The translations under genes were made by a program, and so were the position numbers. A stretch of DNA of 64,000 nucleotides from a virus, in IMG/VR virus record IMGVR_UViG_3300017917_004222, positions 1 to 64,000 of that record; one strand, 5' to 3'. The notes below the pieces were generated by a model. It did no database searches. It saw nothing but the letters and a program-made list of their open reading frames with translations, and had not been told where the DNA came from. This document shows positions 354 through 27,374 of the stretch, piece by piece; the stretch's first letter is position 1, and the number at the start of each line of letters is the position of its first letter.

Positions 354-359
354 GTTTTA

Positions 360-412
360 GGTTCCTTTCAGCAAGCAAAAAACTTTTATCGAAAAAAAGC
401 AAAAGCGGAACC
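360..412 (+). ncRNA. Two-stem RNA element, copy A
   Basis: Outer stem GGTTCC (360-365) pairs with GGAACC (407-412). The motif TTCAGCAA follows the 5' strand, an inner CTTTT/AAAAG hairpin lies between, AAAAGC precedes the 3' strand, and TGTTG follows it. Same architecture as the copies at 2634, 5852, 6789 and 12507, with different but complementary stems. Lies 6 nt after a tRNA CCA. Function unknown. Confidence 0.7.
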
Positions 413-425
413 TGTTGATTTTTGT

Positions 426-2627: not shown

Positions 2628-2633
2628 AGTTTA

Positions 2634-2692
2634 GGATAGGTTCAGCAACCAAAATGCATTCAACTTGTAATTGAAACCGCAAACAACTATCC
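2634..2692 (+). ncRNA. Two-stem RNA element, copy B
   Basis: Outer stem GGATAG (2634-2639)/CTATCC (2687-2692), then TTCAGCAA, then inner hairpin TTCAA/TTGAA. TG(C) follows the outer stem. Begins 7 nt after the CCA of tRNA-Arg(TCG) and ends 6 nt before tRNA-Ile. Confidence 0.7.
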
Positions 2693-2698
2693 TGCCAT

Positions 2699-4466: not shown

Positions 4467-4467
4467 C

Positions 4468-4500
4468 GCCGCGGTAGCTCATCAGGTAGAGCAGCAGAGT
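4468..4500 (+). pseudogene. Orphan 5' half of a tRNA
   Basis: GCCGCGG, then TAGCTCATCAGGTAGAGC, is a canonical acceptor strand plus D arm. The sequence then breaks off into the leader of the next endonuclease. No matching 3' strand (CCGCGGC) is visible downstream. Probably truncated by endonuclease insertion. Confidence 0.65.
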
Positions 4501-4521
4501 AGGCATAAATAGACTTATGCT
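4500..4521 (+). promoter_or_regulatory. Late-type promoter inside a hairpin covering the endonuclease start
   Basis: GCATAA-ATAGAC-TTATGC forms a 6-bp hairpin. ATAAATA, the T4-type late core, spans its 5' strand, and the endonuclease ATG lies in the 3' strand. Early read-through transcripts would hide the start codon, while a late start inside the hairpin would free it. T4 homing-endonuclease genes use this arrangement. Confidence 0.55.
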
Positions 4522-5107
4522 AACCTGTAAATACTGCCAAAAAGAATGCAAGAGCGAGAACTCTTTAAGAAATCACGAACGTTGTTGTCCGCATAATCCG
4601 TCTAGAGTATACAAAAACGGCATGCTAGGAAAAAAAGGATCCAACCAGTTTACCTTGGCGAAGCGATTAGGGAATAATGTCCCTGCCGCATGGAACAAAG
4701 GTTTGCCGGGGTTCTTTGCAGGTAAAAAACACAGCGACGAATCTAAAAGAAAAATTAGCGAAAAACTTTCAGTCAACAACAAAGGCGGAAGAGCCAAGTG
4801 GTATGACGTTGCTGGGCAACGAGTTCAAGGTACCTGGGAAAGAGATATAGCATCGAAGTTGACTGATCTCGGAGTCCCGTGGATAAAGTTAAAGACAAAC
4901 AAAGATACACTGAAGTATGTTATGAACGGGAAAGAGCGTTCATATACTCCTGACTTTTATCTTCCTGAATTCGATATGTACCTTGAGATCAAAGGTTTTT
5001 GGTGGGGAGATGATCGAGAAAAGATGCGTATTGTACTCGAAACGCACACCGACAAACGTATTGTAATAATAGAGAAACAAGAGTACGAACAAATTTTGCT
5101 GCTTTAG
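4517..5107 (+). CDS. Homing endonuclease, zinc finger + NUMOD3 + PD-(D/E)XK
   Basis: A 196-residue protein. The N-terminus has a C2H2-like finger (CKYCQKECKSENSLRNHERCC). The middle has NUMOD3 motifs (GKKHSDESKRKISEKLS), DNA-binding elements of homing endonucleases. The C-terminus carries PDFYLPEFDMYLEIKG (about residues 150-165), the PD...ExK signature of restriction-like nucleases. AT-rich, preceded by a broken tRNA, and its stop overlaps the first bases of tRNA-Phe. Role: double-strand cleavage that spreads its own gene among related phages. Confidence 0.85.
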   Translation: MLTCKYCQKECKSENSLRNHERCCPHNPSRVYKNGMLGKKGSNQFTLAKRLGNNVPAAWNKGLPGFFAGKKHSDESKRKISEKLSVNNKGGRAKWYDVAGQRVQGTWERDIASKLTDLGVPWIKLKTNKDTLKYVMNGKERSYTPDFYLPEFDMYLEIKGFWWGDDREKMRIVLETHTDKRIVIIEKQEYEQILLL

Positions 5108-5844: not shown

Positions 5845-5851
5845 AGTTCAA

Positions 5852-5909
5852 GGATGCATTCAGCAAACAACTTTTTTCACTTTTTGGCTGTGAAAAGCAA
5901 ACTGCATCC
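5852..5909 (+). ncRNA. Two-stem RNA element, copy C
   Basis: Outer stem GGATGC (5852-5857)/GCATCC (5904-5909), TTCAGCAA next, inner hairpin TTTTCAC/GTGAAAA, AAAGC before the 3' strand, and TGTCG after it. Lies 8 nt after the CCA of tRNA-Leu(CAG). Confidence 0.72.
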
Positions 5910-5922
5910 TGTCGTTTTTGAA

Positions 5923-6782: not shown

Positions 6783-6788
6783 AGTCAA

Positions 6789-6890
6789 GGATGACTACAG
6801 CAACATAAAACTTCTCCAACCACTTTTCTGGAGGCCAGCCCAGTAGGGGGCGTGTCGTGGGTTCGACTCCCGGCTTTAGACACATCATCC
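6789..6890 (+). ncRNA. Two-stem RNA element, copy E (expanded)
   Basis: GGATGA (6789-6794) pairs with TCATCC (6885-6890), followed by TGT. ACAGCAA replaces TTCAGCAA, and an inner CTCCA/TGGAG hairpin follows. The interior is about 45 nt longer than in other copies because it holds a T-arm fragment (6857-6873) and a TAGACAC end complementary to 6747-6753. Confidence 0.5.
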
Positions 6891-6902
6891 TGTCATTTTC
6901 AA

Positions 6903-7742: not shown

Positions 7743-8285
7743 ATGAAAACAGTAGGACACAAACTTGACAACTTCGTCGTGACCGGCGTTCGCCCAGGCC
7801 AGCCTGAGGACGCATTCTTTGACATCAACCAAGACAGCTTCCCTGGCAAGTGGAAGGTGATCGTTTATTACCCCAAGGATTTCACATTCGTGTGCCCCAC
7901 TGAAATCGTGGCATACGACCGGCTGGCCGGTGACTTTGAGGACCGTGATGCTGTGCTGTTGACTGGTTCAACTGACAACGAGTTCTGCAAAGTGGCTTGG
8001 CAAAACGCCCATGCCGACCTCAAGAAGATCACCCACACTCAGTTTGCCGATACCCAACGCGGTGAATTGAGCCTTGCTGAACAATTGGGCGTGTTCTACG
8101 CTCCAGCCGGTGCTGCACTGCGCGCCACTTTCATTGTTGACCCAGACAACGTGATTCAACACGTGACTGTAAACAACCTCAACGTGGGCCGCTCACCAGA
8201 AGAAACATTGCGTATTCTTGATTCTCTACAAACGGGAGAGTTATGTCAGTGTAACAGAAAGATTGGCGAAGCGACCTTAGGCTAA
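7743..8285 (+). CDS. ahpC: AhpC-type peroxiredoxin
   Basis: A 180-residue thioredoxin-fold peroxidase. FTFVCPTE places the peroxidatic Cys at residue 51. ELCQCN near 168-170 supplies resolving cysteines, as in the actinobacterial-type AhpC that pairs with AhpD. It would reduce H2O2, organic peroxides or peroxynitrite in the infected cell. Strong ribosome site and own promoter. The C-terminus stops right after GEATLG, apparently several residues shorter than relatives, exactly where the invading HNH gene begins. Key residues are retained, so it is probably active. Confidence 0.93.
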   Translation: MKTVGHKLDNFVVTGVRPGQPEDAFFDINQDSFPGKWKVIVYYPKDFTFVCPTEIVAYDRLAGDFEDRDAVLLTGSTDNEFCKVAWQNAHADLKKITHTQFADTQRGELSLAEQLGVFYAPAGAALRATFIVDPDNVIQHVTVNNLNVGRSPEETLRILDSLQTGELCQCNRKIGEATLG

Positions 8286-8300
8286 TAGATTATTGGGTTG

Positions 8301-8345
8301 GGAATAAATAAAGTTGTAGTTCGCGGGATTGCCGTCCCCAACTAC
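8301..8345 (+). promoter_or_regulatory. Late-type promoter and hairpin ahead of the HNH gene
   Basis: AATAAATA at about 8302-8309 matches the T4-type late core. Just downstream GTAGTT (8316-8321) pairs with AACTAC (8340-8345), with inner GGGA/TCCC. An AGAGGAG ribosome site follows. Confidence 0.5.
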
Positions 8346-8371
8346 TCTAATGCTAAAGAGGAGCACCAGCA

Positions 8372-9166
8372 ATGATATTTATTCCCAACCGTCACACTCG
8401 TATCTATTATTCAATAGTTGAGAAGGCACAACAACGATCTACTCTAAAATCTGTTTATACAGAATCTCACCATATAATCCCAAAATCATTGGGCGGTAGC
8501 GATGATAAAACTAACTTGGTAGATTTAACTTACAAAGAACACAGGCTCTGTCATAAACTCTTAGTAAAAATGACTCAAGGAAAAGCAAAGGGCAAAATGG
8601 CTTATGCTTTACTATTTTTTAGAGTTAGCGAATCAACCAAAAAAAGTTTAGTAAAATCTTTTAGCGATTATCGTAAAAGTTTGATACCTATAACTAATGG
8701 AATCGTAGATAAGTGGATACCTAAGGAAGAAGAAATACCACAAGGCTTTTGCCAAGGGTTCTCTCCTGCTATAGTTAAAAAGCACGGAGACGGTAACAGA
8801 GGTAAAAAATGGATTACTAATGGTATTGTATCGTATCAGATAAAAGATAACATCTTGCCAGAAGGATTTTATTGGGGTCAAGCAGAATACCATAAAGAGA
8901 AGAATAGCAAATCATTAAGCGGTGAGTTAAATCCTATGTATGGAAAACAAGGACAAGAACACCCAGCGTATGGTTACAAACATACCGACGATATGCTACA
9001 GTATCTTTCGCAGTCAAAACAGGGAAATAAAAATCCTATGTATGGAAAACTGCCCCATAATGCTAAGGCCATTGAAGTGAATGGTGTTTTATACAAATCC
9101 GTTTCAGAAGCAAGGCAGAAAACTGGTTTGTCAAGAAGAACAATAGAAAAACTTTACAAGGAATAA
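8372..9166 (+). CDS. HNH homing endonuclease
   Basis: A 264-residue protein. ESHHIIPKSLGG...NLVDLTYKEHRLCHKLL (residues 31-66) is a clear HNH nuclease core. Repeats ELNPMYGKQG and NKNPMYGK (about 188-230) are NUMOD3-like, and the C-terminus (VSEARQKTGLSRRTIEKLYKE) is a NUMOD1/HTH-like DNA-binding element. AT-rich relative to its neighbours. It lies precisely between ahpC and ahpD, and its last codons provide the AAGGA in front of ahpD. A free-standing mobile gene, not an intron. Confidence 0.92.
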   Translation: MIFIPNRHTRIYYSIVEKAQQRSTLKSVYTESHHIIPKSLGGSDDKTNLVDLTYKEHRLCHKLLVKMTQGKAKGKMAYALLFFRVSESTKKSLVKSFSDYRKSLIPITNGIVDKWIPKEEEIPQGFCQGFSPAIVKKHGDGNRGKKWITNGIVSYQIKDNILPEGFYWGQAEYHKEKNSKSLSGELNPMYGKQGQEHPAYGYKHTDDMLQYLSQSKQGNKNPMYGKLPHNAKAIEVNGVLYKSVSEARQKTGLSRRTIEKLYKE

Positions 9167-9170
9167 CAAA

Positions 9171-9686
9171 ATGACCCAATGGGTAGACCAACTGAAAGAA
9201 ACCATCCCTGACTATGCCAAGGATGCTCGGCTCAACATCGACGCTGTGATCAAGCGCAGCACCTTGCCAGTGGAGGAAGCCGAAGCTGTGGCCTTGGCTG
9301 CTGCATTTGCCACTGGCAACACCAAGTTCTGGACTTGGTTGCACAGCGTGGTCGCCAACCGTGTGGAGGCCGATGCTGCAGTCACTGCTGGCAGCATCAT
9401 GGCTCAAAACAACACCTGGTACCCCTATGTTGAAATGGCCGACGATGAGCAACTCAAGGGACTGCCAGCTCAGCTGAGAATGAATGCCATTGCCACTCAC
9501 GGTGGAACCACAAAGGCTCGTTTTGAAGCCTACAGCCTGGCAGCGTCGATTGTGGGCAAGTGCCATTTCTGCGTCAAGGCTCACTACGAGACCTTGAAAC
9601 AGGAAGGTTACACGGTGGAGCAACTGCGTGACATCGGTCGCATTGCTGCTGTGATCAATTCGGTAAGCCGAGTGCTTGCTGGCTGA
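9171..9686 (+). CDS. ahpD: AhpD-like alkylhydroperoxidase
   Basis: A 171-residue all-helical protein of the AhpD/CMD family. KCHFCVKAH (C131, C134, H138) is the catalytic CxxC plus His. In the known system AhpD is the thiol reductant of AhpC, itself recharged through dihydrolipoamide-linked enzymes. Phage ahpC lies just upstream, separated only by the endonuclease, so the two were presumably one operon. ATG chosen because of the AAGGA 9 nt upstream. Confidence 0.9.
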   Translation: MTQWVDQLKETIPDYAKDARLNIDAVIKRSTLPVEEAEAVALAAAFATGNTKFWTWLHSVVANRVEADAAVTAGSIMAQNNTWYPYVEMADDEQLKGLPAQLRMNAIATHGGTTKARFEAYSLAASIVGKCHFCVKAHYETLKQEGYTVEQLRDIGRIAAVINSVSRVLAG

Positions 9687-10268: not shown

Positions 10269-10673
10269 ATGACTCGTCGCTTGTGGGATAGCATTGATGG
10301 TTCCCTGCTAAAGAGCCTGCCAAACGCGGCAAGGGGCTACGAGCAACGAATCACCATTCCTGAGTTTACATTCCTTGGGGTCAAGGACCAACCCGATTTT
10401 GGCCACATCACCATTTGGTTTTATGGCCGTGATCGCACCATTGAACTCAAAAGCCTCAAGGAATATCTGTTTCAGTATCGAGATACTGTGATCAGTTACG
10501 AACGAGCCGCCGATGTGCTGTTCAAGCACCTCATGGCAGCATATGAACCGGATCGCATCAGACTTGAAATTGAATTTAGGCCACGAGGTGGCATCAGCAG
10601 TCGTATGACTGTGGACAGTGACTGGGGCCATTTGGGTGGCACAGACTCACTGTGGCAACATCACAAAAACTAA
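10269..10673 (+). CDS. QueF-like T-fold protein lacking the catalytic cysteine
   Basis: A 134-residue protein resembling NADPH-dependent 7-cyano-7-deazaguanine (preQ0) reductase: [14 protein letters not shown] (31-44), [10 protein letters not shown] (59-68), FRPRGGIS (103-110). The family's general-acid Asp (QPDF) and substrate-binding Glu (E59) are kept. The nucleophilic Cys position is Leu/Gly (about 36-37), and the protein contains no cysteine at all. It cannot use the thioimide mechanism. It may bind preQ0 or a pteridine instead, or be a structural homologue. It starts 4 nt after the omega gene and ends 1 nt before ahcY. Confidence 0.75.
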
Positions 10674-10674
10674 C

Positions 10675-11958
10675 ATGGATTACAAAGTAGCTGACATTGG
10701 ACTCGCAGACTGGGGTCGCAAAGAAATCACCATGGCCGAGCATGAAATGCCCGGTCTCATGGCAATACGCCAAGAGTACGCAGGACAAAAGCCACTGAGT
10801 GGCGCCCGCATCGCAGGGTCATTGCACATGACCATTCAAACAGCGGTGCTGATTGAGACCTTGGTGGAACTGGGTGCCAGTGTGCGCTGGAGTTCGTGCA
10901 ACATCTTCAGTACTCAGGATCACGCTGCCGCCGCCATTGCCGCTGCAGGAATCCCAGTGTTTGCCTGGAAGGGCGAAACCGAACAAGAATATTGGTGGTG
11001 CATTGAGCAAACAGTGTCGGGACCCGACGGCTGGCGACCAAATCTGTTGTTGGACGATGGGCACGATCTCACCCACTATGTGCACGAGCACCGTCCCGAT
11101 CTGTTGCGTGATATCCGTGGCGTGAGTGAAGAGACCACAACTGGAATTCACAAACTCATGGAACGTGTGGCCGCTGGTACCTTGGCCATCCCTGCCATCA
11201 ACGTCAATGACTCGGTGACCAAGAGCAAGTTCGACAACCTCTATGGCTGCAGAGAAAGCCTTGTGGATGCGATCAAACGTGCAACCGACGTCATGATTGC
11301 CGGCAAGATTGCTGTGGTGGCCGGGTACGGCGACGTGGGCAAAGGATCAGCACAGGCCCTGCGAGCCTTGAGTGCACAGGTCTGGGTTACTGAGATTGAT
11401 CCCATTTGCGCATTGCAAGCGGCCATGGAAGGCTTCCGTGTGGTAGACATGGATCAGGCCTGCCGCGAAGCTGACATTTTTGTCACTGCAACTGGCAACA
11501 TCAACGTGATCACAGCACAGCACATGTTGCAGATGAAACACAATGCTATTGTGTGCAACATTGGTCACTTTGACAGCGAGATTGACATTGCTGGCATTCA
11601 GGACGCACACTGGGACGAAATCAAGCCATTGGTGGATCAAGTCACCCTCAGCAACGGTCGCAAGATCATCATCTTGGCCAAAGGCCGCTTGGTGAACTTG
11701 GGCTGTGCAACTGGGCACCCCAGCTATGTCATGAGCAACAGCTTTACTAACCAAGTGTTGGCACAGATCGACTTGTGGCAGAATGGCAAAACCTACCAGC
11801 CTGGAGTGTACCTGCTGCCCAAGCACCTTGACGAAAAGGTTGCTCGACTGCACCTGGCGCAACTGGGTGCACAGCTGACCCAGCTGACTCCCGAACAGGC
11901 AGCCTACATCGGGGTAGACAGCAACGGTCCGTTCAAGCCCAACACCTATCGCTACTGA
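10675..11958 (+). CDS. ahcY: S-adenosylhomocysteine hydrolase
   Basis: A 427-residue enzyme converting SAH to adenosine and homocysteine, relieving product inhibition of methyltransferases. Recognised from [15 protein letters not shown] (73-87), [17 protein letters not shown] (179-195, with the conserved Lys and Asp), the NAD Rossmann motif GYGDVGKG (217-224) and the C-terminal KPNTYRY (421-427). Length and motifs look complete. The extended start upstream is rejected because ATG 10675 follows the previous stop directly. Cotranscribed with the QueF-like and omega-like genes. Confidence 0.95.
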
Positions 11959-12448: not shown

Positions 12449-12490
12449 ACCAGTTTGCCCAAAACAGCACACACGAATGTCAGTGTGCTG

Positions 12491-12496
12491 TATAAT
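12491..12496 (+). promoter_or_regulatory. -10 element ahead of the Ro-like gene
   Basis: TATAAT with no good -35 (17 bp upstream reads CACACA). If used, the transcript would start within about ten bases of RNA element D. Confidence 0.45.
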
Positions 12497-12506
12497 GTGT
12501 TTTTAA

Positions 12507-12560
12507 GGATGCATTCAGCAACTTTTAAATTTCACTGCAAATGAAACCAAAAGCGCATCC
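12507..12560 (+). ncRNA. Two-stem RNA element, copy D (in the leader of the Ro-like gene)
   Basis: Outer stem GGATGC (12507-12512)/GCATCC (12555-12560), TTCAGCAA, inner hairpin TTTCA/TGAAA, AAAAGC before the 3' strand, TGTTG after it. It is the only copy outside the tRNA array and lies 29 nt before the start codon of the TROVE/VWA gene. A cis-regulatory role is likely. Confidence 0.72.
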
Positions 12561-12589
12561 TGTTGCATAATTCATAGAAAGGAAAAGCC

Positions 12590-14014
12590 ATGCAATTCGC
12601 AAACGCAATCGACAACCAAAAGACTCGTACCGCCAACGGCATGAAGGCTCGCGTGAGTTCGGCCAACGCCTGTGTTGACCTGTTCTACAACGTGGGTGCC
12701 AGCCGCGGCAAGGACATCATCCCTGCATTCACTGCGGCCTATGTGGAAAACAGTGACCTTGCCCTGCGAATCATGGCTTGGGCCCGAGACGTGCGCGGCG
12801 GTAGTGGCGAACGCCAACTGTTCCGTGACGTCATGGCGCACTTGGAAAACACTAACCCAGCGGACGCTGCTCGACTGATGGCTGTGGTCCCTGAATTGGG
12901 TCGCTGGGACGACTTGTTTGTGTTCAAGACCGATGCCTTGAAGCACAAGGCATACACCATGTTGGGTGACGCACTTCGCGCAAACAATGGCTTGGCTGCC
13001 AAGTGGACTCCTCGCAAGGGTGCTGTGGCTCGCGAAATTCGCGAATTCTTCGGTATGACTCCCAAGCAATACCGCAAGAGCTTGGTGGCCTTGACCAACG
13101 TGGTTGAAACTCAAATGTGTGCCCGTGACTGGGACAACATCAATTACAACCATGTGCCCAGCTTGGCGCATGCACGTTACAAGAAGGCGTTTGGTCGTCA
13201 CGGTACTACCTACGCTGAATACGTGGCCAAGCTGGCCAAGGGCGAAGCTGGTGTCAAGATCAACGCAGGTGCGGTGTTCCCGTACGATGTGTTGAAGGGT
13301 GCAGTGAGCGCTTACGGTATGAAAGCCCTGAGCAAGACCGAACAAGACGCCATGCAAGCCCAATGGGATGCATTGCCCGACTATGTTGGTGACGCTGACG
13401 TGTTGCCTATGGTTGACAGTTCGGGTTCCATGTCTTGCCCAGCAGGCGGCCACAGTTCCAAGTCTGGCTTGACTTGCTTGGAAGTGGCGTTGAGTTTGGG
13501 TCTGTATTTTGCAGACAAGAACCGGGGCAAGTTTGCTGACTGTTTCTTGACTTTCAGTAACCGTCCCAAGCTGGTGAACTTGAAGGGTAACATCATTGAA
13601 AAGATGAACCAAATGAACACCGGCGAAGTTGCTAACACCAACTTGAATGCGGCGTTTGACTTGATCCTTAAGACCGCTGTTGACAACCAGGTGCCTCAGT
13701 CAGAAATGCCTGGCACACTGTTGATCCTGAGCGACATGCAGTTCGACGGGGCCGTAGATGGTCGTGACGAATCTGCCTTGAAGATGATCCGGCGCAAGTA
13801 TCAAGACGCTGGGTACGAAATGCCTCGCGTGGTGTTCTGGAACTTGAATGCCGCATATGGCAACACTCCTGTCAAGTACGACAAGAGTGGAACTGCACTG
13901 GTCAGTGGCTTTGCCCCTGCATTGGCGCAGTCGATCATGGCTAACGATCTTGACGACTTCACCCCAGAAGCTGTCATGCTCAAAACCGTGATGCAGGCGC
14001 GCTACAACGTGTGA
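12590..14014 (+). CDS. Ro/TROVE-like VWA protein (DUF2828 type)
   Basis: A 474-residue protein. Residues about 25-240 are helical repeats with RDVRGGSGERQLFRDVM (67-81) and PELGRWDDL (101-109), characteristic of TROVE/DUF2828. Residues about 268-450 form a von Willebrand A domain with an intact metal site DSSGS (276-280) and a later ILSDMQFD. The Ro60 relative binds Y RNAs and misfolded RNAs through a ring of helical repeats closed by the VWA domain. A ring-type RNA chaperone is therefore the best hypothesis. Ribosome site AAAGGA; strong terminator downstream. Confidence 0.82.
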   Translation: MQFANAIDNQKTRTANGMKARVSSANACVDLFYNVGASRGKDIIPAFTAAYVENSDLALRIMAWARDVRGGSGERQLFRDVMAHLENTNPADAARLMAVVPELGRWDDLFVFKTDALKHKAYTMLGDALRANNGLAAKWTPRKGAVAREIREFFGMTPKQYRKSLVALTNVVETQMCARDWDNINYNHVPSLAHARYKKAFGRHGTTYAEYVAKLAKGEAGVKINAGAVFPYDVLKGAVSAYGMKALSKTEQDAMQAQWDALPDYVGDADVLPMVDSSGSMSCPAGGHSSKSGLTCLEVALSLGLYFADKNRGKFADCFLTFSNRPKLVNLKGNIIEKMNQMNTGEVANTNLNAAFDLILKTAVDNQVPQSEMPGTLLILSDMQFDGAVDGRDESALKMIRRKYQDAGYEMPRVVFWNLNAAYGNTPVKYDKSGTALVSGFAPALAQSIMANDLDDFTPEAVMLKTVMQARYNV

Positions 14015-14017
14015 TAA

Positions 14018-14047
14018 AATGCCCTGCTAGACAGGGCATTTTTTTTT
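14018..14047 (+). terminator. Rho-independent terminator
   Basis: AATGCCCTG/CAGGGCATT (9 bp, loop CTAGA) followed by eight Ts; closes the Ro-like gene. Confidence 0.95.
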
Positions 14048-14064
14048 GACTTGGAATACACATC

Positions 14065-14578: not shown

Positions 14579-14728
14579 ATGCAATACACACTGATCACAG
14601 CTCGTGGCAAGGTTTTTCAATTCTTTTTGAAGTCGGCTGCTGAACAGTTTCAGCAAGCATACGGGGGTGTTGTGTTTTCACAACAGGTGTTGCAGCAAAA
14701 TCAAAATCAAACTAAAATAACACAATGA
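14579..14728 (+). CDS. Small unknown protein (49 aa)
   Basis: Starts MQYTLITARGKVFQFFLK and ends in a Gln/Asn-rich tail (QQVLQQNQNQTKITQ). First gene after its promoter; its TGA overlaps the next ATG (ATGA), a coupling typical of this region and support for its being real. No family recognised. Confidence 0.65.
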   Translation: MQYTLITARGKVFQFFLKSAAEQFQQAYGGVVFSQQVLQQNQNQTKITQ

Positions 14729-15267
14729 CAACTTGGATTACTTCTGACCTTCACTTTGGTCACAAAAACATCATGAAATTCTGTCCTGCCACTCGCGGGC
14801 ACTTTCGTGATATCGACCACATGCATGCTGAAATGATCAGTGCGTGGAACGAGCGAGTTCAACCCGATGATGTGGTGTACGTCTTGGGTGACGTGGCATT
14901 CTTGCCTGCTGCTGAAGCGGTGAAGATTCTCAACCGCTTGGCGGGTCGCAAAATCCTTGTCAAAGGCAATCACGACCGCAAATTGCTTGAGGACCCTGCG
15001 TTCCGCGCATGCTTCGAGGAAGTGCATTCTGACTGGACTGGCCGCGTCAACGGTACCTATGTTCACATGTATCACTTCCCGATTCAGGAATTTGATCAAA
15101 TGCACCGCGGCGCTGTTCACTTTCACGGGCACGTTCACGGCAAGCCCACTGGCTTGGAACGGTATCGCATTCGTGACGTTGGTTATGACGCTACTGGTCA
15201 TGTGGTTGTCAAGATTGACGACATGATTGCTGATGCATTGCGGGGCGAGATTGGCTCTCACCACTAA
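14725..15267 (+). CDS. Calcineurin-like metallophosphoesterase
   Basis: A 180-residue protein with all metal-binding motifs: SDLHFGH (7-13), GDVAF (about 52-56), GNHD (about 77-80) and HFHGHVHG (about 132-139). The family hydrolyses phosphomono- and diesters. Close phage relatives are small stand-alone enzymes. In the same transcription unit as a YqeY-like protein and a P-loop kinase, so removing 2'-3' or 3' phosphates during RNA repair is a reasonable guess. Confidence 0.9.
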   Translation: MTTWITSDLHFGHKNIMKFCPATRGHFRDIDHMHAEMISAWNERVQPDDVVYVLGDVAFLPAAEAVKILNRLAGRKILVKGNHDRKLLEDPAFRACFEEVHSDWTGRVNGTYVHMYHFPIQEFDQMHRGAVHFHGHVHGKPTGLERYRIRDVGYDATGHVVVKIDDMIADALRGEIGSHH

Positions 15268-20370: not shown

Positions 20371-20394
20371 AGTGTTTTAGACAGCGAGAATACC

Positions 20395-21309
20395 ATGAAC
20401 AAAGATCAATTGCGAGAATTCGTTGAGTCCAATCCTCAGTTGGTGCGGGCTCGTGACGCCGGCAATGGTCTGCAGGTTCTCAAATACTCCAAGCGAGTGT
20501 TTTTTGACAACTTGTGGAACGAGTTCTTGGAAGAATGTCGCGGCACTATTGTGGATTCGGACTACAATCTTGTGACCCGTCCGTTCACTAAAATTTACAA
20601 CTATGGCATCGAAAGCCGTGCTCCTGTGTTGGCACCTGACACCCCTGTGACTGCGTATCGCAAGGTCAACGGGTTCATGGTTGCAGTAACCTGGTACAAC
20701 GGAGACATTCTGGTCAGCACCACTGGGTCCACTGACTCGCCTTATGTGGTTATGGCTCGTGAAATGATGCTGAAACACCAGTGCTGGGAAGATTGGCAAA
20801 TCGCAGTGCGCGGAGCCAAAGACTTCACCTTGATGTTTGAATGTGTGCATCCTGACGATCCGCACATCATCACCGAGGACCCTGGCATGTATTTCTTGGG
20901 CTATCGCGAAAACACTTGGGATAGCAAAGTCAAAATGTACGGCCGGGATATGGCTGACTGGTCGCGTGATTACGCAATGGGTCAACTCAAATGTTATTAT
21001 GCAGAACCTGAGTTCATGACTGTTGCAGAATTGGTTGAAAAGACCCGCTCTGTTCGTCACGAAGGGTTTGTGTTCTACACCGAGGACAACACCAGCGCCA
21101 AAATCAAGTCTCCCTACTACTTGACTGCCAAGTGGGTGGCTCGTAATCCTCGCACCGACAAGTTGGTGGATTTGAAAAACGATATCAAGAAAAATCTTGA
21201 CGAGGAATACTATCCATTGGTTGACGCTATCCGCGCCAACATCGAGTCTTACACTGCCATGGACGAGCAAGCTCGCCTGGCTTGGGTGCGAAACTTTGTG
21301 GGTGCATGA
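20395..21309 (+). CDS. RNA ligase (T4 Rnl1-like nucleotidyltransferase)
   Basis: A 304-residue protein with the covalent nucleotidyltransferase motifs in order: motif I KVNGF (adenylated Lys90), IIIa LMFECVHPDDPHI (about 160-172), IV HEGFVFY (about 222-228), V AKIKSPYY (about 234-241). This matches Rnl1-type ligases that seal broken tRNA anticodon loops after end healing. Together with the kinase and metallophosphoesterase it completes an RNA repair set beside a large tRNA array. First gene of a long overlapping series. Confidence 0.88.
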   Translation: MNKDQLREFVESNPQLVRARDAGNGLQVLKYSKRVFFDNLWNEFLEECRGTIVDSDYNLVTRPFTKIYNYGIESRAPVLAPDTPVTAYRKVNGFMVAVTWYNGDILVSTTGSTDSPYVVMAREMMLKHQCWEDWQIAVRGAKDFTLMFECVHPDDPHIITEDPGMYFLGYRENTWDSKVKMYGRDMADWSRDYAMGQLKCYYAEPEFMTVAELVEKTRSVRHEGFVFYTEDNTSAKIKSPYYLTAKWVARNPRTDKLVDLKNDIKKNLDEEYYPLVDAIRANIESYTAMDEQARLAWVRNFVGA

Positions 21310-23740: not shown

Positions 23741-24826
23741 ATGAGCGATACCCGTACCGTCACCGCAACCCAAGCCCGTCGCAGCATCCTGACCGCGTTC
23801 AAGGCCCAGCGTCCCATCTTCCTGTGGGGCCCTCCTGGCATTGGCAAGAGCGAGCTGGTGGAGGGCATCACCCAGGACTTGGGTGGCTACATGATCGACC
23901 TGCGCTTGGGTCAGATGGAGCCCACTGACATTCGTGGCATTCCGTTCTACAACAAGGACCTGGGCAAGATGGACTGGGCTCCGCCTGTGGAACTGCCCGA
24001 CGCTGAACTGGCCAGCCAGTATCCTGTGGTTGTGCTGTTCCTGGACGAACTGAACTCTGCTCCGGCCAGTGTGCAGGCCGCTGCCTACCAGCTGATCTTG
24101 AACCGTCGCATTGGCAAATATGTCCTGCCCGACAACGTGGTCATGGTGGCTGCAGGCAACCGTGAATCGGACAAGGGCGTGACTTACCGCATGCCGACTC
24201 CGCTGGCCAACCGCTTTGTGCACCAGGAAATGAAGGTGGACTTTGCTTCGTGGCAGGACTGGGCCGTGAACCACAAGATCCACAAGGACGTGGTGGGTTA
24301 CCTGAGCTTTGCCAAGCAAGACCTCTACGACTTTGACGCCAAGAGCGCCAGCCGTGCATTCGCTACTCCGCGTTCGTGGAGCTTTGTGAGCCAGCTGTTG
24401 GACGACCAGGTGGACGACGAGACCCTGACCAACCTGATTGCAGGTACCGTGGGCGAAGGCCTGGCTGTGAAGTTCATGGCTCACCGCAAGATTGCCAGCA
24501 AGATGCCCGCACCGCGTGACATCCTGGACGGCAAGGTCACTGACCTGCAAGTGAAGGAAGTGAGTGCCATGTACTCGCTGGTGATCAGCATGTGCTACGA
24601 GCTCAAGGCCGAAGTGGAAGCCAAGGTGGACACTGCGGAGTTCCACAAGCATGCAGACAACTTCTTGGCCTACATGATGAAGAACTTCGAAACTGAACTG
24701 GTGGTGATGGGTGCGCGAATTGCGCTGACCACTTACGGTCTGCCCCTGCAGCCCACCAAGATGAAGACGTTCGACGAGTTCCACAAGAAGTTCGGCCACT
24801 ACGTGCTCAAGGCACAAGGCAACTGA
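23741..24826 (+). CDS. MoxR-type AAA+ ATPase
   Basis: A 361-residue AAA+ protein: Walker A GPPGIGKSE (30-38), Walker B VVLFLDELNSA (about 94-104), sensor 1 VMVAAGNRESD (about 133-143), and a C-terminal lid. MoxR ATPases act as chaperones that load or remodel a partner carrying a VWA domain. The VWA metallopeptidase gene at 26100 is the obvious partner; the Ro-like VWA protein at 12590 is another. GC-rich and optimised in codon use, suggesting high expression. Ends at a terminator. Confidence 0.92.
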   Translation: MSDTRTVTATQARRSILTAFKAQRPIFLWGPPGIGKSELVEGITQDLGGYMIDLRLGQMEPTDIRGIPFYNKDLGKMDWAPPVELPDAELASQYPVVVLFLDELNSAPASVQAAAYQLILNRRIGKYVLPDNVVMVAAGNRESDKGVTYRMPTPLANRFVHQEMKVDFASWQDWAVNHKIHKDVVGYLSFAKQDLYDFDAKSASRAFATPRSWSFVSQLLDDQVDDETLTNLIAGTVGEGLAVKFMAHRKIASKMPAPRDILDGKVTDLQVKEVSAMYSLVISMCYELKAEVEAKVDTAEFHKHADNFLAYMMKNFETELVVMGARIALTTYGLPLQPTKMKTFDEFHKKFGHYVLKAQGN

Positions 24827-24846
24827 TCACCCCGGGGTGACATTGG

Positions 24847-24875
24847 GGGCTGTGCTAATACCACAGCCCTTTTTT
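24847..24875 (+). terminator. Rho-independent terminator
   Basis: GGGCTGTG/CACAGCCC (8 bp, loop CTAATAC) followed by six Ts. Confidence 0.93.
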
Positions 24876-24877
24876 AC

Positions 24878-25111
24878 ATGCACAAGATCGCACACTATCC
24901 TGGCGAAACATTTCCAGACCGCATTGAGTTCAACACGGGAGAGCACAGCGTGATCATGGCCTCTGTATATTGGAGTCAGGCTTGTCGAATTGCTCGCGCT
25001 GTGTTTGGAGCTGACGACACAGTGTGGATACAGGATTCCTGGCAGTTGACCATTGCATTTCGCAGCCAACAGGAATTGTCGTGGTTCCTGTTGCGTTACC
25101 GGCCATCATGA
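24878..25111 (+). CDS. Unknown protein (77 aa)
   Basis: Begins MHKIAHYPGETFPDRIEFNTGEH immediately after the terminator U-tract, with no visible ribosome site. Ends QQELSWFLLRYRPS. Its last part (WIQDSWQLTIAFRSQQELSWFLLRY) resembles the end of the next protein (HLDFFNDAAQSLFLLKYVPD), suggesting a duplicated pair. No family recognised. Confidence 0.65.
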   Translation: MHKIAHYPGETFPDRIEFNTGEHSVIMASVYWSQACRIARAVFGADDTVWIQDSWQLTIAFRSQQELSWFLLRYRPS

Positions 25112-25401
25112 AAATCACTGTAAAACATCGCTTGGTGATATTTCACCGCGAGCATGAATGGAATCAAGTGTATGCCCAGATTCGTCGGGATTATGGCATG
25201 AGAATGGCACTGCAATCTGCCCTGTGTCGTGAGCTGGGGTTCAGTGTGCGCCGACATCGTGCCCTGGTGCCCAACGAAGTCCAATACAAGCATGGCCCCA
25301 GCATGCATTACGAACAGCATGTTCACCTGGACTTTTTCAACGATGCTGCACAAAGCCTGTTCCTGCTCAAGTATGTGCCCGATCAGGAGAACCCGCAATG
25401 A
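25108..25401 (+). CDS. Unknown protein (97 aa)
   Basis: Starts MKITVKHRLVIFHREHEWNQVYAQIRRDYGM. Alpha/beta pattern with basic middle (RELGFSVRRHRALVP). ATGA overlaps at both ends. No family recognised. Confidence 0.7.
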   Translation: MKITVKHRLVIFHREHEWNQVYAQIRRDYGMRMALQSALCRELGFSVRRHRALVPNEVQYKHGPSMHYEQHVHLDFFNDAAQSLFLLKYVPDQENPQ

Positions 25402-25682
25402 CATCTCGGTTCAGCCCCATCAGCAACCTGGACATTGTCCGGGGTGGTGGCCGATATTGGCCAGCAATGGCGGTGAACATATTGTTTTCGGCCTCGATTC
25501 TTGTGCCTATGGCACTGGCGTTGATAGCGGCTGAGCGTATCACTGTCATATTCAGAAAACGGGAACCCATCCGAGCCGGGTGGCGTGTTTACCACCGTGT
25601 GTTTAACTTCAAGGTTTGGGTAATACAAAGGGTTTACCTGGGCTGTGATCCGCAGTTGTGGGCAGCATTGACCCAGATTTGA
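25398..25682 (+). CDS. Small protein with one membrane segment (94 aa)
   Basis: A hydrophobic stretch MAVNILFSASILVPMALALIAAE (about 24-46) is flanked by Arg-rich sequence (FRKREPIRAGWRVYHRV). Likely an inner-membrane protein. No family recognised. Confidence 0.7.
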   Translation: MTSRFSPISNLDIVRGGGRYWPAMAVNILFSASILVPMALALIAAERITVIFRKREPIRAGWRVYHRVFNFKVWVIQRVYLGCDPQLWAALTQI

Positions 25683-25707
25683 CCAAAAATGCCCCAAATG
25701 CTATAAT
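25679..25707 (+). promoter_or_regulatory. Sigma70-type promoter
   Basis: TTGACC, AAAAA block, 17-bp spacer, TATAAT (25702-25707). Confidence 0.9.
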
Positions 25708-25738
25708 AACAACATAGCGTAAACAAACGGAACCTGCA

Positions 25739-26038
25739 ATGATTGAAATCCTGGGCTACATTTTTGCAACGATCCTGACTGCTGCGGCTGTGTGGTTTGT
25801 GTATCACATCATCCGCGGTGCTGTGCTGGGTTTTGACATGACTCGTTGGATGCTGATTGGTGTGAATTGGCAGCAAATCCGCAGCAACAAGAACTGGATG
25901 CGCAAACTGGTCCTGATGTTCCTGCACTGCTGGTATGAGTGCGTTGGCTACAACGGCGGCATCACTTACAGCCGCAACGGTCGCACCTGGTCCGGCTTTG
26001 GCACTGGTCGTGTGCAGGGCCAGGAAACACAAGACTGA
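25739..26038 (+). CDS. Small membrane protein (99 aa)
   Basis: N-terminal membrane helix (ILGYIFATILTAAAVWFVYHII, 4-25), an amphipathic middle and a soluble tail with YNGGITYSRNGRTWSGFGTGRVQ. Lies between the MoxR and VWA-peptidase genes; possibly a membrane anchor for that pair, but only by position. Confidence 0.7.
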   Translation: MIEILGYIFATILTAAAVWFVYHIIRGAVLGFDMTRWMLIGVNWQQIRSNKNWMRKLVLMFLHCWYECVGYNGGITYSRNGRTWSGFGTGRVQGQETQD

Positions 26039-26065
26039 CTGTCGCACATAATTCATGATCTGTGC

Positions 26066-26071
26066 TATAAT
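26066..26071 (+). promoter_or_regulatory. Extended -10 promoter of the VWA peptidase
   Basis: TGTGCTATAAT matches the 3' half of the recurrent early promoters, but the -35 region is poor (CGCACA). Confidence 0.6.
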
Positions 26072-26099
26072 TGCACATCGCAACAAGGAGTTGATCTCG

Positions 26100-27374
26100 A
26101 TGACCGCAAAGACCACCGCAAAGAAAGAAGACCAGTTCAAGGACCTGTTGGGTCCCACTGACCCCAAGCTGGACCGTGAGGTTCGCGAAAAGCTGATCAC
26201 AGCCCGTGTGGGCCTGTTGCTCAAGGCCAGCTTCTTCGGCAACCTGGCAACTCGACTCAAGCTGATCAACGCTGACGAGTGGTGCAGCACCGCTGCCACT
26301 GACGGTCGCAACTTCTATTACAACACCCGTTTCGTCAACATGCTCAAGCCACGCGAGATTGAGTTCTTGTTTGGTCACGAGGTGTTGCATGCGGTGTATG
26401 ACCACATGGGCCGACGTGGTGATCGCGACCCGCAGATCCACAACATCGCCTGTGACTTTGCTGTGAACGCAGACTTGAAAAAGCACCGCGTGGGCGAATT
26501 CATTACCACTGTGCCTTGCTTGTATGACAGCAAGTATGAGGGCATGAGCTCGGAACAGATCTACGACGATCTCATGAAGAACGCCAAGAAGATCGACCTC
26601 AACAAGTTGATTCAGCAGATGCTGGACGAGCACTTGGACGGTGACGGTGACGGCGAAAGTGACGGTGACGGTGACGACAAAGAAGGCAAGGGCAAGGGTC
26701 GCCCCAAGCTGACCGAAGCTGAGAAGCAGGCCATTCGCGACGAGCTCAAGGAAGCTGTGCTGGCTGCGGCACAAACTGCCGACGGTGCAGGCAACATCCC
26801 GGCCAACGTGCGCCGCATGATCCAGGAGTTGACCGAGCCCAAGATGAACTGGCGCGAACTGTTGCGCATGCAACTGGAAAGCACCATCAAGAGCGACTAC
26901 ACCTGGATGCGAGCCAGCCGTCGTGGTTGGCACATGGACGCTGTGATGCCTGGCATGCAGAACGAGCCCATGATCGACATTGCTGTGGCCATTGATACGT
27001 CGGGCTCGATCCAAGACAGCATGCTGCGAGACTTCCTGGGCGAAATCCAGGGCATCATGGATTCGTTCCCTGCGTATCGCATCCATGTGTTCTGCTTCGA
27101 CACTTCGGTGCACAATCCTGCACAATACAACAGTGACAACCTGGACAGCATCTGTGAATACGAGCCCGGTGGCGGTGGCGGTACTGACTTCACTGCCATC
27201 TACGACTACCTCAAGTCGGAAGAGATTGAGCCCAAGCGCTTGGTGGTGTTCACTGACGGTTACCCGTTTGGCTCGTGGGGTGACGAGAACTACACTGATA
27301 CGGTGTGGATCTTGCATGGCACCACCAGCATTGTTCCGCCCTGGGGTCAATATGCCTACTACGAAGAAAAGTAA
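26100..27374 (+). CDS. VWA-like metallopeptidase (DUF2201 type), MoxR partner
   Basis: A 424-residue protein. N-terminal zincin-like domain with FGHEVLHAVYDH (HExxH at 93-97). A highly acidic Asp/Gly linker (about 179-198, DGDGDG repeats) that could bind calcium. A helical stretch follows, then a VWA-like domain with AVAIDTSGS (about 296-304; DTSGS metal site) and FTDGYPFG. Such proteins occur beside MoxR ATPases. Substrate unknown. Good ribosome site (AAGGAG) and a terminator at the end. Confidence 0.85.
   Translation: MTAKTTAKKEDQFKDLLGPTDPKLDREVREKLITARVGLLLKASFFGNLATRLKLINADEWCSTAATDGRNFYYNTRFVNMLKPREIEFLFGHEVLHAVYDHMGRRGDRDPQIHNIACDFAVNADLKKHRVGEFITTVPCLYDSKYEGMSSEQIYDDLMKNAKKIDLNKLIQQMLDEHLDGDGDGESDGDGDDKEGKGKGRPKLTEAEKQAIRDELKEAVLAAAQTADGAGNIPANVRRMIQELTEPKMNWRELLRMQLESTIKSDYTWMRASRRGWHMDAVMPGMQNEPMIDIAVAIDTSGSIQDSMLRDFLGEIQGIMDSFPAYRIHVFCFDTSVHNPAQYNSDNLDSICEYEPGGGGGTDFTAIYDYLKSEEIEPKRLVVFTDGYPFGSWGDENYTDTVWILHGTTSIVPPWGQYAYYEEK

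Follow-up and report, generated by a model that had tools for sequence, protein, structure and literature searches.

We analysed a phage DNA stretch of 64,000 nucleotides (nt), hereafter the window, which covers positions 1-64,000 of the 147.8-kilobase (kb) record IMGVR_UViG_3300017917_004222 and which encodes a protein of the Ro family together with five copies of a small structured RNA element. A tRNA array of about 30 genes occupies the first 7 kb of the window. Four of the copies (A-D) were found in this array, and the fifth (E) was found in the leader of the Ro gene. The elements and the parts of the Ro transcription unit are listed below.

359-413, plus strand: element A, filling the spacer between tRNA-Trp and tRNA-Gln; hairpin loop ATCGAAA with anticodon-like CGA.
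2633-2693, plus strand: element B, filling the spacer between tRNA-Arg and tRNA-Ile; hairpin loop CTTGTAA with anticodon-like TGT.
5851-5910, plus strand: element C, filling the spacer between two tRNA-Leu genes; lowest folding z-score, -2.47.
6788-6891, plus strand: element D, with a longer insert that includes the T-arm-like sequence GTGGGTTCGACTCCCGG.
12491-12496, plus strand: putative -10 box TATAAT, ending ten bases before the start of element E.
12506-12561, plus strand: element E in the Ro leader; stem AGGATGC/GCATCCT, CAGCAA at 12516-12521, hairpin loop CTGCAAA at 12535-12541.
12577-12584, plus strand: putative Shine-Dalgarno region between element E and the start codon.
12590-14014, plus strand: Ro-family ring protein of 474 amino acids (aa), phrog_850, with DUF2828 and a DUF7788 vWA domain; family assigned with AlphaFold2 and Foldseek.
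13415-13429, plus strand: core DSSGS (D276-x-S278-x-S280) of the metal ion-dependent adhesion site (MIDAS) of this protein, with T350 and D382 further on.
14016-14050, plus strand: predicted intrinsic terminator, directly after the Ro open reading frame (ORF).

The element copies share one layout: a stem of 7 base pairs, AGGNNNN/NNNNCCU, in which the 5' arm is followed by a few bases and CAGCAA and then by a variable insert. The 3' arm of the stem ends in CCUG, and the constant motif beside the 5' arm reads (U/A)NCAGCAA. An earlier interpretation made from the letters of the window (the sequence-only reading) had described a two-stem element with a single copy outside the tRNA array, in the Ro leader. 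The two stems, an outer stem and an inner hairpin, are correct for A, B, C and E. The single outside copy is likewise borne out, since a covariance scan of the whole 147.8-kb record found no copy besides A, B, C and E at E<=1, in a scan where these four had helped to build the model and D was too long for it. Elements A, B and C leave just 4-12 nt of inter-tRNA spacer on each side, so cutting at the tRNA ends would free them as RNAs of about 71-78 nt. At the Rfam gathering score, only tRNAs were matched in the window.

The product of 12590-14014 matches phrog_850, annotated as 'RNA-binding protein' (E 1e-139). Its Pfam matches are DUF7788 and DUF2828 only; the Pfam scan gave no match to the TROVE model, and neither phmmer nor a profile search of PDB sequences returned a Ro relative. 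We therefore note that the link to Ro comes from fold comparison only. An AlphaFold2 model was built from 31 relatives (pLDDT 77, pTM 0.79), and its top three Foldseek matches were Deinococcus Rsr (2nvo, E 1.9e-6) and the two frog Ro60 structures 1yvp and 1yvr (E of about 1e-5); TM values were 0.37-0.54. The fourth-best and later matches had E 0.02 or worse. Because the three best fold matches are Rsr and Ro60, the protein belongs, by its predicted structure, to the Ro fold, consisting of a helical-repeat ring and a vWA domain. The sequence-only reading had called it a DUF2828/TROVE-VWA protein with an intact metal site and had proposed a structure prediction of the ring domain. That prediction gave the Ro relatives, and the DUF2828 part of the label stands, while no TROVE match backs the other part. 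The metal site is indeed intact: D276, S278, S280, T350 and D382 are invariant across the 31 relatives.

We then asked how far the element exceeds chance. A scan for the stem and motif in 80 related viral contigs (1.15 Mb, often incomplete) found 172 elements on the Ro strand, whereas the opposite strand gave 4 and Markov-simulated sequence 4-9. The window itself gave 5 against 0. For a test of covariation, 138 elements were anchored irrespective of pairing. The four free stem positions all pair in 135 of these, using 25 different four-base sequences, whereas re-dealing the arms gave an expectation of 21.7 (maximum 31). In an alignment across phages of many hosts, compensatory changes were found at all 7 stem pairs, and 97.9% of cells pair, compared with 70.7% in shuffles and at most 50.6% after sliding. 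Folding energy alone does not single out the elements (z -1.05 to -2.5), so the evidence for them is comparative. These sequence comparisons confirm that the element is real and far beyond chance.

The Ro protein was found by tblastn in 681 of 50,697 phage records. Of 15 complete Ro phages, 14 are matched by the element model R1, with E values no worse than 1.5e-5; among them are KVP40, Citrobacter Ci1, Serratia BF, Stenotrophomonas DLP6 and Aeromonas phiAS5, which contributed no sequence to the model. In the fifteenth, Enterococcus EFDG1, elements were detected by the stem-motif scan and by the Rfam model of the bacterial Y RNA YrlA. A Ro phage with no element anywhere, the case that the sequence-only reading had regarded as fatal to its proposal, was thus not encountered among these complete genomes. 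R1 gave no match at E<0.1 in six complete phages that lack a full Ro gene (T4, T5, phiKZ, XacN1, RaK2 and BcepF1). Records were also fetched by sequence pattern, and 19 were judged to hold genuine elements and 9 to be chance matches. Ro is encoded in 14 of the 19 and in 0 of the 9, although one of the nine controls (G020) later proved to carry genuine elements and all nine may be fragments. The elements of L113, L122 and L176 are genuine. A scan of bacterial genomes for the Ro protein returned one contig of a metagenome-assembled genome (L248), which carries elements upstream and may itself be phage. Some 200 kb separate the element array from the Ro gene in Serratia phage BF, which means that proximity by itself does not account for the association of element and Ro. 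Phages with both were found for cyanobacteria, enterobacteria, vibrios, rhizobia, Campylobacter, Listeria, Enterococcus and mycobacteria. Our literature searches found no description of the phage element.

The inserts were found to mimic parts of tRNA, a feature that the sequence-only reading had missed, as it had the promoter before the leader element and the spread across phages. Among the distinct small array copies, 121 of 175 have a hairpin with a 7-nt loop and U33. U33 and A37 occur together in 101 small array copies, whereas shuffling of the inserts gave 6.6 on average and never more than 12. Of these 101, 96 have A or U at position 36, a feature of 58% of 2531 tRNAs from the same contigs, and loop positions 34 and 35 vary more than 36. 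U33 and A37 with A or U at position 36 form the loop signature of tRNAs with a hypermodified A37. Longer elements go further. At least 46 long elements of relatives contain a circularly permuted tRNA, in which an anticodon-like arm is followed by the T arm, an acceptor stem with a short capping link, and the D arm. In L161 (2721-2819, minus strand) and in L186 we observed a normally ordered tRNA body in which the element stem replaces the acceptor stem. Some tRNA annotations of 110-121 nt near Ro genes (tRNA-OTHER, Undet, Sup, Pseudo) may be misread tRNA-mimic elements; odd annotations were noted in S13 (132703-132945), Ci1 (77205-77318), B23 (220408-220517) and PhiImVa-1 (20388-20502).

The closest known counterpart of this arrangement is YrlA (RF02553) with its protein Rsr. 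As in the phages, the gene for a Ro-fold partner is adjacent and a stem joins the ends of the RNA. The YrlA insert runs T arm, capped acceptor hairpin and D arm, a permuted tRNA, and the same order was found in the 46 long phage elements, but not in the small copies or in element E of the window. The YrlA model aligns over its full length to elements of EFDG1 (43.2 bits) and LeBron (39.8 bits; E 1e-9 to 1e-8), within a phage range of 34-43 bits, and gave no match to the small elements of the window. Several features are unlike YrlA. The phages have many copies in tRNA arrays and one in the Ro leader, most small phage copies carry an anticodon arm only whereas YrlA has none, and the phage protein matches DUF2828/DUF7788 and not the Pfam TROVE model. 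Work in Salmonella has proposed YrlA as a possible competitor for anticodon nucleases (PMC7790460).

To characterize the leader copy, we considered the 75 relatives with enough sequence upstream of Ro. A full leader element was found in 70 of them, ending 19-57 nt 5' of the Ro start, and a reduced or variant form in 4 of the remaining 5 (L041, L042, L050 and L074). The 75 relatives fall into 21 Ro clusters at 90% protein identity, and the full form is present in 17 of the 21. A Shine-Dalgarno sequence and ATG follow 46 of 49 leader copies. A promoter with at least 9 of 12 matches lies upstream of 17 of 42 distinct leaders, compared with 17 of 326 other copies, and these leader promoters mostly end 8 or 11 nt before the AGG of the element. 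In the window, the TATAAT box sits ten bases upstream of element E, so the Ro message probably begins with the element. The Ro unit is probably monocistronic, because the predicted terminator directly follows the ORF. Just 5' of the -10 box, at 12464-12490, there is also an inverted repeat, CAGCACAC..GTGTGCTG, a possible transcriptional operator.

The best reading of these results, which we hold with a probability of about two in three, is that the phage makes Y-like RNAs built on one Ro-recognition frame and that the Ro leader carries an autoregulatory operator of the same frame. The phage would encode a Ro ring and a family of small Y-like RNAs. The frame would be the short covarying stem that joins the RNA ends, with (U/A)NCAGCAA by its 5' arm, and it would carry tRNA-mimic modules: an anticodon arm alone, a circularly permuted tRNA or other tRNA-like folds. 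Processing of the flanking tRNAs would free the array copies, and Ro may bind and protect these small RNAs. Surplus free Ro could then bind the leader copy, making its own message less translated or less stable, and Ro output would thereby scale with its RNA ligands. The likeliest partners of the tethered modules would be enzymes acting on the anticodon loops of tRNAs. The modules could be decoys for host anticodon nucleases, a platform for phage RNA repair enzymes, or both; alternatively, the same loops could recruit tRNA-modifying enzymes. The decoy is the leading idea because tRNAs are the target of several host defences, which phages counter by supplying their own tRNAs (PMC10264068, PMC11555353). 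The sequence-only reading had suggested a Ro-Y-RNA-like system, autoregulated and acting on the tRNA transcripts. Its Ro-Y-RNA-like character and its autoregulation survive as the best reading, with a leader element conserved in position, structure and motif. The action on tRNA transcripts finds no support: the array copies fill spacers, carry tRNA-mimic inserts and have the look of small RNAs in their own right.

For an operator the protein-binding part of the element would be enough, and this is the part that the leader copies keep. Most retain stem and motif and lack the anticodon loop: the U33 loop is kept in 5 of 25 distinct small leader copies compared with the 121 of 175 array copies (Fisher p 3.5e-6, a value that overstates the case because related contigs are not independent). 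The minimal leaders are reduced to the stem and ACAGCAA, with the 3' arm running into the Shine-Dalgarno sequence (AACCTGAAAGG in L030 and L041; similar in L050 and L076). These observations bear on an unlikely but serious alternative, in which the leader copy is a Y-like RNA gene that is co-transcribed with Ro and cut from the message, with no autoregulation. Bacterial Y RNA genes do adjoin Ro genes, as in the rsr-yrlBA operon (PMC7790460), the leader copy of the window has a full hairpin with an anticodon-like loop, and the copies near Ro in several phages, such as LeBron and VpaE1, lie downstream of the gene. However, the general loss of the anticodon loop from leader copies speaks against an effector RNA, and the shrunken leaders that run into the Shine-Dalgarno sequence suit an operator better.

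Several points weigh against the reading of Y-like RNAs with a leader operator. Ro binding, autoregulation, release of the small RNAs and decoy function are steps that we infer, the decoy role from the anatomy of the loop. Element E retains its anticodon-like loop, and with 28 nt between its end and the Ro start codon there is no obvious way for it to block the ribosome directly in the window. Some Ro phages, for instance LeBron, VpaE1, Ci1, BF and phiAS5, have no clear Ro-leader element and carry elements elsewhere; the leader operator would therefore be common, not universal. The YrlA matches stay under the Rfam gathering score of 69, and the Ro-stem sequence differs, the phages having (U/A)NCAGCAA and YrlA having AAUGC. 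In addition, locus L271 (G020:95300-97400), on a 130-kb contig with tRNAs, has two clear elements, AAGATGGTTCAGCAA..AACCATCTTG, and no Ro gene was detected in this contig, which may be incomplete.

Three other explanations were weighed. The first follows the sequence-only reading: Ro would act on the tRNA array transcript, with the elements as tags that recruit it to tRNA precursors so that these are processed, protected or quality-checked. The copies do lie between tRNA genes, and Ro proteins have a role in RNA quality control. We consider this improbable: spacer-filling copies would be cut off the tRNAs, the inserts mimic tRNA parts as in YrlA and are more than mere tags, the leader copy has no attached tRNA, and the tRNA-rich phages T4, T5 and XacN1, which lack Ro, have no element. 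Less probable still is that the elements are bound by a different protein or serve as signals for processing the array, for example by an RNase, with Ro as a bystander near tRNA arrays. Copies are found mainly in arrays and some element contigs have no detected Ro, but a copy, often preceded by its own promoter, stands in the Ro leader of most relatives, the BF array is remote from Ro, and complete tRNA-rich phages without Ro lack the element. It is very improbable that the array copies are functionless pseudo-tRNAs or degraded permuted tRNA genes; many hold recognisable tRNA pieces in permuted order, but every outer-stem pair covaries, CAGCAA is constant in phages of very different hosts, and the anticodon loop is conserved by position and not by composition.

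The element also resembles the Class I RNAs of dictyostelids (RF01414), which run from AAG to CUGU over 42-65 nt and have a covarying end stem of 6 base pairs, a constant motif by the 5' arm, a variable middle and many copies; they were reported to be unique to dictyostelids (PMC7919456). The Rfam consensus of the motif by the 5' arm is CCUUACAGCAA. The phage elements share this layout, including the covarying end stem, the motif by the 5' arm, the CUGU end and a length of 42-65 nt. The best matches of the Class I model in Ro phages are the phage elements, and 19 of the top 20 matches examined are genuine elements. Element A of the window is a weak match (27.4 bits). The best phage score, 33.9 bits (E 9e-6), is below the gathering score of 41.5, so common descent, shared protein recognition and convergence are all possible. 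In control contigs the best score was 18.5 bits, itself from a genuine element. Class I RNAs are eukaryotic, have their own promoters and were reported to be bound by the RNA recognition motif protein Rnp1A/Cibp (PMC7919456). Class I genes are defined by a DUSE promoter and occurrence in dictyostelids, whereas the phage genes lie in tRNA arrays or behind sigma-70-type promoters, and no DUSE search was made. It is a speculative idea, and in our view a doubtful one, that the phage Ro-linked RNAs and the Class I RNAs belong together as Y-like RNAs bound by Ro proteins of the DUF2828 type, whose small phage forms would be Ro-tethered anticodon-arm decoys protecting phage translation against tRNA-cleaving host immunity, with the leader operator matching Ro to RNA supply.

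Two lines of phage work touch on the same subject. In the Listeria phage CKA15, strongly transcribed regions just upstream of an Rsr homologue were suggested to be Y RNAs (PMC12282133). We found three elements in that region of P100 (L087), a P100-like relative of CKA15, as candidate counterparts of these transcripts. The CKA15 paper describes no structure, motif, family, leader element, anticodon mimicry or wider spread (PMC12282133). Phage tRNAs are known to evade tRNA-cleaving defence (PMC10264068, PMC11555353). They come from the same arrays and have the same possible opponents, anticodon nucleases, as the elements; they are functional, however, whereas the elements cannot be tRNAs and sit on a Ro-type stem. 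The small stable RNAs rnaC and rnaD of T4 were considered as relatives and dropped, having no CAGCAA frame and no model match.

Further genes of the window include two that touch on these subjects.

14725-15267, plus strand: calcineurin-like phosphoesterase, phrog_547, two genes after Ro.
20395-21309, plus strand: T4 Rnl1-type RNA ligase (PF09511, E 4.8e-14), a possible RNA-repair partner with a proposed link to Ro.

A kinase-like protein is also encoded in the window and, with the Rnl1-type ligase, is consistent with a tRNA repair kit. RtcB was rejected as a Ro partner, since none was found in the 147.8-kb record, which may be incomplete. In three relatives an element lies 26-27 nt upstream of the phrog_547 homologue (L061:4123-4177, L068:2320-2374 and L079:2450-2504), and these leader copies suggest a small regulon with Ro. 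A third class of element, of about 160 nt and with extra conserved stretches, was observed in L009:9113-9276, L010:8275-8438, L011:8595-8758 and L022:8853-9016, where it sits 23-28 nt upstream of an ORF of 155 aa (rubrerythrin-like in L009). Long forms resembling this class precede the leader copy in many relatives.

The remaining observations concern other parts of the window. An S-adenosylhomocysteine hydrolase (E 1.5e-136) is encoded at 10618-11958 and a QueF-like protein at 10269-10673. At 7743-9686 an HNH/NUMOD homing endonuclease separates an AhpC-like peroxiredoxin from a CMD/AhpD-like gene. At about 4467-5107 a tRNA gene start, GCCGCGGTAGCTCATCAGG..., is broken by a homing-endonuclease-like ORF (4517-5107). 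At 23741-27374 a gene for a MoxR-type AAA ATPase precedes one for a DUF2201 metallopeptidase-like vWA protein.

Work on Ro proteins and Y RNAs has dealt mainly with animals and a small number of bacteria, and next to nothing has been described of what they do in phages. The same pairing of Ro and element in very different phages suggests a widespread and largely undescribed RNA system. The element, with its easily recognised frame, provides a defined candidate ligand for the phrog_850 'RNA-binding protein' of 681 phage records and makes the proposed autoregulation testable. RNAs shaped like anticodon arms on a Ro ring offer a further testable idea, namely that they interfere with defences that cleave tRNAs. 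Through their resemblance to the element, the orphan Class I RNAs of dictyostelids could gain a protein partner and kinship outside the amoebae.
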